From: Nocardioides sp. Root682
Lineage (GTDB): Bacteria > Actinomycetota > Actinomycetes > Propionibacteriales > Nocardioidaceae
DNA length: 64,000 nucleotides
NCBI RefSeq assembly: GCF_001427795.1
Contig: NZ_LMHJ01000003.1
Span: 612,204 to 676,203, forward strand
Direction: 5' to 3'
Part shown: one piece after another, positions 49,818 to 55,293 of the stretch
Layout of the letters: each line of letters begins with the position of its first letter
How positions within the stretch are numbered: position 1 is the first letter of the stretch
Notes under the pieces: model-generated
Seen by the model: the letters and a program-made list of their open reading frames with translations, nothing else
Told to the model about the DNA's origin: nothing
The model's database searches: none
Position numbers and translations under genes: made by a program

Positions 49818-50975
49818 GTGGACACCATCACCCTGCGCGTGGCCTTCGGCCTCGTGGCGGTGTGCGTCCTGACGCTCTTCTACGGCGTGACGTACCGGTC
49901 CACGCGGTCGTCGTACAGCGCCTGGTGGTGTCTCTCGCTGGCGTGCTTCATCCTCAGCGCGTTGCTGTTCGTCTTCAACGGCACCCCGGCCCAGGTCGTC
50001 GCCAATCCGTTGGGCAACGCCACCGGCACCCTCGGTGCCGGTTGTGTCTGGGCCGGTGCCCGGTCGCTCCGCGGTCGGGACGTCTCATGGCGGCCGCTGG
50101 TGCTGGTTCCTGCCTTGGTCCTGCTGGTTGCACTGCTGGACGACCCGGTCCACGACAGGTGGTCCGGCGGCATCGCGTACCTCCTCGCCATGGCAGGCCT
50201 GATCGGGCGGTCGGCCTTCGAGCTCCGCCAGCTGCTCCGCGAACGTGACCCCCGGGACGGCAATGGCGACCAGATCCGGTTCGCGGTGTCCTCGATGGCG
50301 ATCACCTCGGGAGCCATTGCCGGCTACTACGTCGTGCGAACGGTCGTGTTCGCCGTCCTCGGCCCGGAGCATCGGGTCTTCGACGTCGGGTTCGGCGGCC
50401 AGACGACCACCTTGCTCACCATGGTCCTGCTGGTCGTGGTCACGTTCAGCATGTCGGCGCTCAGCCACGAGCAGCAGACCTCCGACCTGCGGGTGCAGGC
50501 GACCCGGGACGCGCTCACCGGTCTGCTCAACCGAGCCGAGTTCTTCCGCGTCGCCGAGCGCGACCTCCGCCGTCGCGGCCGACCGGCCGCGCTGGTCATC
50601 GCCGACCTGGACCGGTTCAAGGACCTCAACGACAGGTTGGGCCATGCGGCCGGTGACGCGGCGTTGATCGCGTTCGCAGAGAGCTGTGAAGCCGTTGTCG
50701 GCGCCCCCGGCCTCGTCGGTCGGCTGGGCGGGGACGAATTCGTGCTCCTGGTTCCCGACCTGGAGGCCGAGCTCCTCACCGAGGCGATTGCGGCCCGCTA
50801 CCGACGGGGGACCGACCGACGCTCTGCCACCTTCGGGATCGCCGCCATGTCGGTCGGCAACGACCTCGCAGCCACGATGGCGGCTGCAGATGCCGCGTTG
50901 TACCGCGCCAAGGCCCAGGGACGTGGTCGTTCAGCACGCGGCCTGCCGGAGCAGAGCGGCCGGCGTACGGTCTGA
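49818..50975 (+). CDS. Membrane diguanylate cyclase (GGDEF)
   Basis: A 385-residue protein. Six or so membrane helices fill residues 1-210, followed by a GGDEF domain (DALTGLLNRAEFF, ADLDRFKDLNDRLGH, RLGGDEFVLLVP), complete for making cyclic di-GMP from GTP. The inhibitory RxxD I-site just before GGDEF is replaced by residues GAPG, so product inhibition is not expected. GTG 49818 lies six bases after TAACGT. It stands alone between unrelated genes. Confidence 0.9.
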   Translation: MDTITLRVAFGLVAVCVLTLFYGVTYRSTRSSYSAWWCLSLACFILSALLFVFNGTPAQVVANPLGNATGTLGAGCVWAGARSLRGRDVSWRPLVLVPALVLLVALLDDPVHDRWSGGIAYLLAMAGLIGRSAFELRQLLRERDPRDGNGDQIRFAVSSMAITSGAIAGYYVVRTVVFAVLGPEHRVFDVGFGGQTTTLLTMVLLVVVTFSMSALSHEQQTSDLRVQATRDALTGLLNRAEFFRVAERDLRRRGRPAALVIADLDRFKDLNDRLGHAAGDAALIAFAESCEAVVGAPGLVGRLGGDEFVLLVPDLEAELLTEAIAARYRRGTDRRSATFGIAAMSVGNDLAATMAAADAALYRAKAQGRGRSARGLPEQSGRRTV

Positions 50976-51141
50976 GCGTCGATGACCCGAGGTGCCGCAG
51001 GCGTCGCCGGCGACCTCGTCAAGTCCTCACAAAGTAGGGGCGCAAGTGCCGCACGGGCCTGGTCGGCGGCGGTTACGTTGACGGAACTATCTCCACAGCC
51101 AGGTAGTCCGGGTGTTCTGGCCGTTGCCCTCTGGAGCAGAC
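50976..51141 (+). other. Intergenic region upstream of the giant secreted protein
   Basis: This 166-base gap is the longest in the window. It holds TTGACG near 51077 as a possible -35 but no convincing -10. GGAG lies shortly before ATG 51142. No RNA gene or repeat was seen. Confidence 0.3.
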
Positions 51142-54100
51142 ATGCCGTTCACCTCGCCCGCCGTACCCCCACGCTCCCGCCTCGGTCACTGGACTGCGCG
51201 AGCATCATTGATCGGCATGCTGGGGCTGGCTGTCGTGGCCCTCGCCCCGGCGCCTGCATCGGTCGCAGCACTGCCGCCGCAGTGCTCGGCGCCGGACGCG
51301 AACAACATGGTCACCTGCAGCTACACCGACCAGGGGTCCACCGAGTACACGCTGCCGATTCCGAGCGGCACCACCAGTGCCCAGGTGCGCGCCGTGGGCC
51401 AACGCGGCGCGCCAGCCTCCGGGGACTTCGGCACCGTCCCTGGCGGAAGCGGCGCGCTGGTGACCGCGAACATCACCTCGATCCCGGCCGGTTCCACGTT
51501 CAAGATCAGGGCACGTGCCGACGGTGGTTCCTCGAGCAACGGAGGGGGCGCCGGTGGGGGAAGTGCTGCGGTCCGCTTCGGACCGTCGGGCTCCGAGACC
51601 GACCTGGTGATCGCTGCCGGTGGTGGCGGCGCGGGTGAGGGGGCCGGCGGCCCCGCAGGCGCCCCCGGGGAGGCTGGTAGCGGAGATTTCTCACTCATCG
51701 GCGGCGGGGGTGGGCAACCAGCGACGGCGAGCACCAACGGCTCCGGAGGTCTCGGCGCGGATTGCGGCGCCTTCGGCGGCACCGGCGGCACCGGCGGCGC
51801 CGGCACGACGACGGGCGGCGGTGCCGGCGGTGCTGGCGCCGGCGGCGAATCGTCGGGCGGCGGCGGCGGGGGCGGCCGGCGTGGTGGCGGTGGTGGCGGC
51901 GGCGGCTGTTCCGCGAGCACCACCGGTGGCAGCTTCTACGCATACCCGGGAGGCGGCGCCGGCGGACTGAGCCTGGTCCCGGCCGGCGGAACCTCGGACG
52001 TGGCGCCGGCACTCGAAGTACGCAACGTCCGCATCACCTTCCAGGTGAGCCCCGTCATGGCCATCTCTCCGACCACGATGAGCTTCGGCAACGTCCGGGT
52101 CGGCACGACCAGCGCTGCGCAGACCGTCGTCGTGAGCAACCCCGGCGGCGCTCCCTTCACCGTCTCCACGGCCACCTTCAGCGGCAATCCCGGCTTCCAG
52201 GCCAGCACCGGGTGCACCGGGGTCGTGGTCCAGCCCGGGGCCTCCTGCTCCCTGACGGTCACGTTCGCCCCGACGACTTCGGGGACGTCGAGCGGAACCC
52301 TGTTCGTCAACTCCAACGCCCCCAACTCTCCGCGGACCGTCCTGCTCACCGGCACCGGGGTCACCCCGATCGCCAACCTGTCCCCGACGGCGTTGGCGTT
52401 CCCCGCCACCCTGGTCGGTCAGCAGAGCTCGGCCCAGGGCGTCACCCTGCAGAACACCGGGCCGGTCTCGATGACGGTCAGCGGCGTGACGTTCACAGGA
52501 ACCAACGCGGCCGACTTCGTGAAGACGTCGGACAACTGCACCAATGCCGTGCTCAGCACCGGCCAGTCCTGCACCGTCCAGGTCGCCTTCAAGCCACAGG
52601 CCCCCGGTTCCCGAGCGGCTCTCCTGTCGTTTGCCGACAATGCGCCGGGCACGCCCCACCAGGTGAGCCTGTCGGGAGCCGCGACCCAACCCGCCGCCAG
52701 CCTCACGCCGAGCTCGCTGACGTTCGCGGACATGCCCGTGGGGCAGACCAGCCCGCAACAGCCGGTGACCATGCGCAACGTGGGTTCGTCGACCCTGACC
52801 ATCTCCGGCGTGACGTTCGGCAGTGGCGCCGCCGACTTCCAGAAGGTGAGTGACGGCTGCACCGGAGCGGCCCTCGCCCCGAACGCTTCGTGCGTCGTGC
52901 AGGTCGCGTTCCGCCCGACCGTCGCGGGGACTCGCACCGGGGTCCTCTTCTTCGCCGACAACGCCCCCGGCAACCCGCACTCGGTGTCCCTCACCGGGAG
53001 CGGCCTGACCCCCCTGGCCACCCTGACGCCGACGTCGGTGGACTTCGGGACCCAGGGCACCGGGACGACATCGGCGTCGCGGACGGTCACCCTGCGCAAC
53101 TCCGGTAACGCGCCGCTGACCGTCAGTGCGGTCACGATGGCAGGAACACACCCCGTCGACTTCCCGATCCTCGGCGGGACCTGCGTCGGGGCTCCGATCG
53201 CGGTCGGCGCGACCTGCACCGTCCAGGTCGCCTTCGCCCCCACGGCGCCCGACACGCGTAGCGCGTCCCTGCAGTTCACCGACAACGCACCCGGTTCCCC
53301 GCACGTGGTTTCCCTGATCGGGTCCGGCTCGCCGCCGGTCGTCTCGGTCCCCGCCAACCAGTCCTTCGGCGACGTACCGGTGGGCAGCACCGGAGCCCCC
53401 CGGGAAGTCCTGATCACCAACACCGGTCTCGGTGTCCTGGAGGTACCCGGCATCACGGTCGTGGGAGCCAACCCGGGTGACTTCATCCTCGGCTTTCACC
53501 TCTGCGAGGGATCGATCGACCCCGGGGACAGCTGCGCCGTCCCGGTCTCGTTCCGTCCCGGAGCAACGGGCGCCCGCACGGCGACGTTGCGGATCGCCGA
53601 CAACGCGGCAGGGAGCCCCCACCAGGTGAGCCTCACCGGCAGCGGCGTGGGCGCGGGCCGGATGGACCTGCGTGGACCGGGGACCGTCTACACCACCGGC
53701 AACGGAACGAAGGTCACCCTGGGAGTGACCGGTCCGAACGTGGCCGCGACCTATCGGGTCAAGGTCACCAACACCGGCTCGACCGCCTCGACGTACGAGT
53801 TCAACCTCGTCAAGTCCGGGGCTCCGGCGAACGCGGGAGTCTTCACCACCGGGAACGTCGCCCTGCCGACCAACGGGACGGGCAACCAGTTCACCGCCAG
53901 CATCGCCCCCGGAGCGTTCATCGAGTACCTGGTCAAGGTCACTCCGACGACTCCCGGCCAGAACATCAGCACGGTTGCGGTCCGCCTGCTGGCGCCCAAC
54001 GGTGCTGTCCAGGACACCGGCATCACCGAGACCAACGTCAAGGCTCCGGCCACGGGCACCGACGGGTACGGCCTGTTCGCCACGGCCAACGCCCAGCCCT

Positions 54101-55293
54101 ACATCGGCGGCTCGGTCAACGGCCAGTCGATCACGGCGAACACCGTGGCCCTCAACGGGTCGGCCGCGTTCACCGTGCGGTTGCGCAACGACGGCACCAC
54201 CGCGCACCCGATCACGCTCAAGCTCACCGGGACGGCCGAGAACTGCTGGACCAGCAAGGTCACCGTCGCGGGCGTCGACGTCACAGCCGCGGCGTACGGC
54301 TCGGGCTATGTCACGCCGTCTATGGCGATCAAGACCCAGAAGGACGTCGTCGTCACCGTGAAGCGGGTGCTCAACGGCTGCGGGCCGGTCACCTACACGG
54401 CCACGTCGTTCAACGGCACGACCGCGATGCACTTCTCCCGGCTGATCTCCAACCCGACCGTCCCGCCGCCGCCGAACACCACGCCCTCGCTGCAGGTCTA
54501 CGGTCCCGGTTCGGTCTACACGGCGTTCGGCAACACCGTCACCAAGCCGGTCACCGCGGCTGGGGTCGATGCCACCTACACCCTCCGCGTCACCAACACG
54601 ACCATCAACCCGAGCTCGTTCAAGATCGCCCTCACCAAGGTCGGAGCTCCTTCCAACGCCAGGGTGTACCTCGGGACCACGTTGCTGCCCAAGGACGCGA
54701 ACGGGAACTACATCACCCCGACCATCGCCACCAACGGCGTCGGGCAGTACGTGCTCAAGGTCGCCACGACGGATCCCGGACGGACGACCGGGGTGGTGAT
54801 GGCCACCCTGCTCGGGGCCAGTGGTCCGATGGCGACCCTCACCACCGAGACCAACGTTCAGGCTCCAGCCACCGGAAGTGACGCCTACGGCTTGTACGCC
54901 AAGGAAGGCACCCAGGCCTTCATCGGGATGCTGCCCGCGGTCCAGGCCGTGACCGCGCCTTCACTCGCCCTCAACGGGATCGCGAAGTTCACCGTGCGGC
55001 TGCGCAACGACTCCGCGGGGGCGAGCCCGACCCGCCTGCGGCTCTCGGGACCCGGCAGCGCCTGCTTCACCGCAACGGCTGCCCTGGGAACGGTCAACGT
55101 CACGTCCCAGGCGTTCTCATCGAGCGGCTACCCGGTGGGCACCGTCGCGAAGGCCGGCTACAAGGACGTGGTCATCTCGGTCAAGCGGATCAGCAAGGAC
55201 TGCGCCTCCCTGACCCTCCTGGCCGAGTCGCTCAACGAAGCAGGGGTGCCGCAGCACGCTGCACGGCTCATCACGAACCGCGGTGTCGTCTGA
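51142..55293 (+). CDS. Giant secreted protein: Gly-rich domain, five ASH repeats, duplicated C-terminal module
   Basis: A 1383-residue exported protein. Residues 1-43 are a signal peptide (hydrophobic core LIGMLGLAVVALAPA). About 45-290 is a glycine-rich domain of the PF12810 kind (SYTDQGSTEYTLPIPSG, then runs of Gly at 127-273). About 299-838 are five repeats of 105-110 residues of the choice-of-anchor D/ASH type, each with SFGNVRVGT-like starts and a Cys pair. Residues 838-1108 and 1114-1383 are two copies of a 270-residue module, sharing TETNVxAPATGxDxYGL, FTVRLRND and KDVVxxVKR, which I do not recognise. No LPXTG or membrane anchor is visible. ATG 51142 is preferred to GTG 51112 for its GGAG site. 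It could be an adhesin or cell-surface layer component. Confidence 0.8.
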   Translation: MPFTSPAVPPRSRLGHWTARASLIGMLGLAVVALAPAPASVAALPPQCSAPDANNMVTCSYTDQGSTEYTLPIPSGTTSAQVRAVGQRGAPASGDFGTVPGGSGALVTANITSIPAGSTFKIRARADGGSSSNGGGAGGGSAAVRFGPSGSETDLVIAAGGGGAGEGAGGPAGAPGEAGSGDFSLIGGGGGQPATASTNGSGGLGADCGAFGGTGGTGGAGTTTGGGAGGAGAGGESSGGGGGGGRRGGGGGGGGCSASTTGGSFYAYPGGGAGGLSLVPAGGTSDVAPALEVRNVRITFQVSPVMAISPTTMSFGNVRVGTTSAAQTVVVSNPGGAPFTVSTATFSGNPGFQASTGCTGVVVQPGASCSLTVTFAPTTSGTSSGTLFVNSNAPNSPRTVLLTGTGVTPIANLSPTALAFPATLVGQQSSAQGVTLQNTGPVSMTVSGVTFTGTNAADFVKTSDNCTNAVLSTGQSCTVQVAFKPQAPGSRAALLSFADNAPGTPHQVSLSGAATQPAASLTPSSLTFADMPVGQTSPQQPVTMRNVGSSTLTISGVTFGSGAADFQKVSDGCTGAALAPNASCVVQVAFRPTVAGTRTGVLFFADNAPGNPHSVSLTGSGLTPLATLTPTSVDFGTQGTGTTSASRTVTLRNSGNAPLTVSAVTMAGTHPVDFPILGGTCVGAPIAVGATCTVQVAFAPTAPDTRSASLQFTDNAPGSPHVVSLIGSGSPPVVSVPANQSFGDVPVGSTGAPREVLITNTGLGVLEVPGITVVGANPGDFILGFHLCEGSIDPGDSCAVPVSFRPGATGARTATLRIADNAAGSPHQVSLTGSGVGAGRMDLRGPGTVYTTGNGTKVTLGVTGPNVAATYRVKVTNTGSTASTYEFNLVKSGAPANAGVFTTGNVALPTNGTGNQFTASIAPGAFIEYLVKVTPTTPGQNISTVAVRLLAPNGAVQDTGITETNVKAPATGTDGYGLFATANAQPYIGGSVNGQSITANTVALNGSAAFTVRLRNDGTTAHPITLKLTGTAENCWTSKVTVAGVDVTAAAYGSGYVTPSMAIKTQKDVVVTVKRVLNGCGPVTYTATSFNGTTAMHFSRLISNPTVPPPPNTTPSLQVYGPGSVYTAFGNTVTKPVTAAGVDATYTLRVTNTTINPSSFKIALTKVGAPSNARVYLGTTLLPKDANGNYITPTIATNGVGQYVLKVATTDPGRTTGVVMATLLGASGPMATLTTETNVQAPATGSDAYGLYAKEGTQAFIGMLPAVQAVTAPSLALNGIAKFTVRLRNDSAGASPTRLRLSGPGSACFTATAALGTVNVTSQAFSSSGYPVGTVAKAGYKDVVISVKRISKDCASLTLLAESLNEAGVPQHAARLITNRGVV

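Follow-up and report, generated by a model that had tools for sequence, protein, structure and literature searches.

What is the tandem repeat that closes a long secreted protein of Nocardioides sp. Root682, and what could it do there? The gene lies in a stretch of 64,000 nucleotides (contig NZ_LMHJ01000003.1, positions 612,204 to 676,203; called the window below), where 51112–55293 on the forward strand forms a single open frame of 1393 codons, and a first-pass annotation had described its 3' end as a tandem pair of an unrecognised 270-residue module. The tandem itself is real, with copies at about 53650–54450 and 54478–55290 that make up the C-terminus of one secreted protein, and the range 53656–55293 given earlier is correct within the uncertainty of the domain bounds. 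However, the unit is neither a single module nor unrecognised: each copy consists of two domains, A and B. In terms of fold and family there is good support for reading both as divergent DUF11-like immunoglobulin-like (Ig-like) domains. Judging from profile matches and predicted structures, the whole protein is very probably secreted and rod-like, built from nine beta-sandwich domains of the Ig-like kind, namely five ASH repeats followed by A-B-A-B.

Aligned locally, the two copies match best over 53662–55278, where 113 of 261 aligned pairs are identical; the score of 482 compares with a maximum of 117 in 1000 shuffles. The motifs TETNV(K/Q)APATG, FTVRLRND and KDVV..VKR, already noticed at first reading, occur in both copies in the same order, and what had been noted as a few cysteines are exactly two per copy, both in the second half. 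Between the copies 46 of 112 residues are identical for A1 and A2 and 66 of 143 for B1 and B2. Compared as single sequences, A and B share 17–26 identities over 65–96 residues and two of the four pairs stay within the shuffle range; with relatives added, hhalign aligns A with B at a probability of 96% (E 2e-9). AlphaFold models of both copies are nearly all-beta and fall into two parts (best mean pLDDT 76.5 and 78.3), each half being predicted as a two-sheet Ig-like beta-sandwich with Ig/FnIII-type structure matches. A single new 270-residue fold is ruled out by this profile match and by the models, and A and B are in all likelihood divergent copies of one DUF11-like domain.

In order to name this domain we compared the copies and their relatives with curated families. 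Neither window copy matches a Pfam or NCBIfam model at cut-off, DUF11 (PF01345) gives no row up to E 1 for either of them, and 4HBT_3 and FixG_C, which match copy 1 weakly and below the Pfam cut-off, were rejected as names for it. Among the relatives DUF11 matches eight of 12 A+B members at E ≤0.1, and two of the seven A+B modules scanned (L013 and L019, with 24.9 and 30.1 bits) pass its gathering cut-off of 24.6 bits, one in the A half and one in the B half, the other five scoring 15.6–18.7 bits. The first-pass annotation had held that a confident match to an Ig-like or DUF11-type repeat would speak against an unrecognised module; such a match exists through these two relatives, whereas the window copies themselves remain below every cut-off. 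The alignment of the A half covers the greater part of the DUF11 repeat, and the A profile matches repeats in a different protein encoded by this genome, which are DUF11 by Pfam, with an hhalign probability of 93% (E 4e-7); a family of single C-terminal domains described below matches the same repeats with 84%. Because relatives pass the cut-off and both the A and the single-domain profiles match DUF11 repeats, A and B are best read from their sequences as divergent DUF11-like Ig domains, forming a family for which there is no dedicated curated model. The related model B_ant_repeat (TIGR01451) matches four of the 12 A+B members weakly (best E 0.0004). What distinguishes the A+B subfamily from DUF11 is the pairing of the two domains and the cysteine pair in B. 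ASH, or choice-of-anchor D (NF012200, PF15780), is also Ig-like and present in the same protein, and NF012200 gives weak matches in three of the 12 members (best E 6.3e-5, whole module). Membership of the window copies in ASH was nevertheless rejected, as neither copy scanned alone has an ASH match and the A and B profiles align with the ASH repeats of the window at hhalign probabilities of 14% and 2%.

Using single sequences as query we detected A+B relatives in 13 of 294 genomes of the family, and a profile search of 215 genomes of the genus recovered 17 rows of nearly full length, from 11 genomes; any match to the profile is present in 37 of the 215, the remainder beyond the 11 covering part of the model only. 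Relatives with a species name are N. silvaticus and N. stalactiti. The unit occurs in two settings, as stand-alone secreted proteins of about 310 residues (signal peptide, A and B) and at the end of ASH proteins, where the repeat numbers vary from five ASH and two A+B in the window to one and one in genome G006 and nine ASH matches and one A+B in N. silvaticus/G105. All 17 related A+B modules compared possess exactly two cysteines, in the same alignment region of B, which makes a disulfide in B likely. In a phylogenetic tree, whose root was placed at the midpoint only, the two window copies are sisters (support 96/93) and stand apart from three single-module ASH proteins (100/99); the tandem thus probably arose within the lineage of the window, which suggests that the A+B unit was duplicated once there. 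A mobile origin was rejected, as a tblastn search with the tandem found nothing in plasmids or phages. The same genome also carries two adjacent stand-alone A+B genes (L006:3551–5566) which by eye lie downstream of a gatB-like gene, and the relative in genome G222 (L102:4314–5246) likewise follows a gatB-like gene.

The weaker matches of the A+B profile turned out to be single domains closing other secreted proteins. A profile made from 20 of them matches all four halves of the window protein in order (E 4e-4 for A1, 3e-8 for B1, 0.11 for A2 and 0.006 for B2 in the whole protein), while the ASH repeats of the window score about 0 bits. A2, with E 0.0097 in the copy alone, is marginal by itself because the best of 200 shuffles of the whole sequence reaches E 0.29. 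In hhalign the single domains match A at E 1e-10 and B at E 1.2e-17, the link to B being partly given by construction as they were found with the A+B profile. In an alignment of 12 of them no single row has a convincing Pfam or NCBIfam match. Within the genus the profile finds at least 91 rows in at least 73 of the 215 genomes, both lower bounds with the best candidates per genome scored, and in a sample of 394 genomes of the class it has matches in 18, including nine from other genera. We examined 68 of the 91 rows, after excluding two at contig edges, seven weak ones and 14 in A+B proteins, and in 67 of them the domain ends 0–21 residues before the stop; the sole exception (L138) continues for 115 more residues. 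Of ten N-terminal parts scanned, eight contain a known family, representing seven kinds of partner: Ice_binding with Big_13, arylsulfotransferase, SBBP (twice), Rax2, InlB-B-like, CotH with Calx-beta, and beta-helix. A signal peptide is found by a crude rule in eight of 16 frames intact at their 5' end, and by eye five more have a signal-like start and three do not. A large DUF11-repeat protein of the Root682 genome (L099, G000:C2) also shows a weak match to the single-domain profile (E 0.046).

How these proteins end was analyzed with a simple test, in which a tail counts as hydrophobic if the mean over 17 residues exceeds 1.6, or as sortase-related if an xPxTG motif is present. None of the 68 domain-ending proteins has either (highest tail score 1.51), and the window protein, with a score of 0.86 and no xPxTG motif, does not look like a sortase substrate; its genome carries two sortase genes. 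The ice-binding proteins allow the two kinds of ending to be compared. A search with Ice_binding gave 56 rows in 32 of 209 genomes of the genus. From 37 regions examined six were set aside (three tandem-ice proteins, one frame stopping inside a Big-like repeat and two cut by contig ends). In every one of the 31 short forms that are intact, the C-terminus is a hydrophobic segment with basic residues, preceded in 28 of them by xPxTG, which we take to be a sortase-type tail. The three tandem-ice proteins stop at the ice domain with neither type of tail. Long frames with one ice domain (536–942 aa), in which intervening Big repeats were confirmed by Pfam for one, end in the single domain in 14 of 16 rows, the remaining two being one cut by a contig end and one with neither ending. 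In many short Ice_binding proteins (L143–L160, L163–L174, L177 and L178) the hydrophobic segment at the C-terminus is preceded by an unusual motif of the [HN]PxTG type.

Fold comparisons place half A close to the peptidoglycan-binding domain of WxLIP from Enterococcus faecium, which is among its top matches (Z 10.4 and 11.0 over 109 residues, root-mean-square deviation (rmsd) 2.5 and 2.6), although with an identity of 6–12%; half A is also matched by Vpr. At the sequence level WxLIP_PGBD (PF06030) gives no row for the window copies, and one relative reaches 16.0 bits against a cut-off of 27.3, in its B half. RbmA, a biofilm matrix protein of Vibrio cholerae, matches across both halves (Z 9.5 and 9.9 over 207 and 204 residues, rmsd 6.9 and 6.5), and among the matches spanning both halves at Z >9 its rmsd is by far the lowest (6.5–7.3, compared with 13–20 for the others in both lists). 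Like A+B it is secreted and consists of two tandem Ig/FnIII sandwiches, but the relative placement of its two domains differs. Z values of this size indicate fold, not function.

With regard to function, we tentatively prefer a role of A+B in attachment to the surface or to a matrix, a preference held somewhat below even confidence. It is favoured because 67 of the 68 single domains are C-terminal, behind varied partners and without any sortase-type tail, and because long ice proteins end in the single domain and short forms in a sortase-type tail. In such a protein the ASH run would form the stalk, with the Gly-rich N-terminus as its exposed head. At the other end, the C-terminal A+B pairs would attach the protein to the cell envelope or to a matrix glycan, without a covalent anchor; in other secreted proteins of Nocardioides the C-terminal single-domain relative may play this part. 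Taken together, a nine-Ig secreted rod with A+B as C-terminal attachment end has, in our estimate, about an even chance. A good possibility, though not a probable one, is that the A+B pairs are simply further stalk that lengthens the rod, any binding then being confined to the Gly-rich N-terminus or absent altogether. Domains of the DUF11-like kind often form stalks, the numbers of both ASH and A+B repeats vary between relatives, and 16 other ASH frames end without a known anchor, all of which would fit a spacer; a neutral spacer, however, does not need the C-terminal place seen in nearly all single-domain relatives, and A+B also exists alone.

It is unlikely, but worth considering, that A+B is an outward-facing unit like RbmA, which has two tandem FnIII domains; it would then bind glycan or matrix and cross-link cells or matrix instead of holding its carrier in place. 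In size and layout RbmA is similar to the stand-alone secreted A+B proteins, its rmsd is the lowest among the two-domain matches, and it binds exopolysaccharide via FnIII-2 (PMC5605196). Yet RbmA is absent among the six chains matched by sequence at E ≤10, and an rmsd of 6.5–7 over both domains means a different domain arrangement. We consider it quite improbable that the C-terminal domain is a mere cap that aids folding of secreted beta-rich proteins or protects them from proteases without binding a ligand: the strict C-terminal position and the cysteine pair in B of all 17 A+B modules compared would be in line with it, but 62 of the 68 single-domain relatives have no cysteine in their last 125 residues (three have two), and copy 1 of the window protein is internal.

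Several observations weigh against the assignment of A and B and against the preferred attachment role. The B profile gives no direct match to the DUF11 repeats of the same genome (probability 0.8%), the AlphaFold alignments held four sequences each and the five models per job differed (mean pLDDT 54–78), and the resemblance in fold to WxLIP and RbmA barely exceeds what Ig-like sandwiches commonly show. The Ice_binding and single-domain rows are interrelated, and their counts are not independent events. Only three proteins of the Root682 genome have convincing matches, unlike what a general sorting signal would give, and the stand-alone A+B proteins have nothing obvious to anchor. Finally, 16 other ASH frames of the genus were examined and none has A/B, the single domain or a membrane tail at its end; 13 further ASH frames without A+B lie outside this sample. 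As none of the 16 has a known ending, the missing anchor appears to be common among ASH proteins, and an exchange of anchors, of the kind suggested by the ice-binding proteins, was not seen among these 16. One ASH frame (L186) has xPxTG without a hydrophobic segment, and the second ASH-repeat protein of the Root682 genome (L180, G000:C1; a frame of 948 residues) has an ASH-like end without A/B.

The features of the gene are collected in Table 1. Its frame is open from GTG 51112, but the ATG at 51142, with GGAG upstream, is the likelier start, and the relative from G006 (L100:6381–8414, 677 aa) has a comparable start position and a similar Gly-rich N-terminus. The signal peptide was assigned by eye. 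The Gly-rich part and the five ASH repeats do precede the copies as the first-pass annotation had it, the latter matching NF012200 in five stretches (E 2e-89); the Gly-rich region has no match in Pfam or NCBIfam, and searches gave nothing usable. Scans for promoters and terminators found nothing. Directly upstream and on the same strand lies a diguanylate-cyclase-like gene (49818–50975, GGDEF motif by eye); an operon with it was not adopted and the adjacency was set aside as evidence because by eye the neighbours differ in G006 (L100), which does not show this adjacency. An antisense open frame of 913 codons (51691–54432, reverse strand) crosses the gene and is most likely a high-GC shadow frame.

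Table 1: Features of the gene and its protein product in the window, with the basis of each assignment.
Feature	Position	Strand	Basis
Whole gene, secreted multi-domain protein of 1383 residues	51142–55293	+	ORF, GGAG, comparable start in G006 relative
Signal peptide (approximate): basic n-region, hydrophobic core, end ...SVAA	51142–51270	+	by-eye reading of sequence
Gly-rich N-terminal region	51271–52047	+	also present in the 677-residue G006 relative
Five ASH / choice-of-anchor D repeats	52048–53652	+	Pfam/NCBIfam matches
Single ASH repeats (approximate bounds)	52048–52374, 52372–52695, 52696–53019, 53020–53343, 53344–53652	+	
Copy 1 domain A, Ig-like	53650–54042	+	alignment, profile comparisons, AlphaFold, fold matches
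Copy 1 domain B, Ig-like, two cysteines	54043–54450	+	profile comparisons, AlphaFold, cysteine count
Copy 2 domain A	54478–54861	+	alignment, AlphaFold, fold matches; weakest profile match among the four halves
Copy 2 domain B, two cysteines, ends at stop codon	54862–55290	+	alignment, profile, AlphaFold

The architecture had first been judged suited to a long surface fibre or adhesin. A secreted, long multi-Ig rod has good support; an adhesin does not, as no adhesive domain or known anchor was found. Compared with fibrillar adhesins as presented in PMC8286594, the protein is likewise secreted with many tandem Ig-like domains and has tandem stalk domains (five ASH, taken as stalk, and four A/B), but unlike them it is without a recognised adhesive domain or anchor; Pfam scans found no adhesive family, and an undescribed one could escape them. 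The same source reports that close to half of the fibrillar-adhesin-like proteins lack a known anchor. The listings of literature searches on choice-of-anchor D, bacterial ASH, WxL-interacting protein and Nocardioides surface proteins or sortase showed nothing on the A+B module.

In summary the orphan region can now be annotated as a pair of DUF11-like Ig domains. The pair also exists on its own, and it has a C-terminal single-domain relative that a third of the searched genomes of the genus contain. It is possible, if rather doubtful, that A/B and this relative form an undescribed family for non-covalent surface attachment in Nocardioides and other Actinomycetes. If so, the family would replace the sortase tail on ice-binding, arylsulfotransferase-like, CotH, beta-propeller, beta-helix and ASH proteins, and would fill part of the missing-anchor gap among fibrillar-adhesin-like proteins. 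If the C-terminal domain does attach its carriers, many apparently 'free' secreted proteins of soil actinobacteria would be surface-bound.

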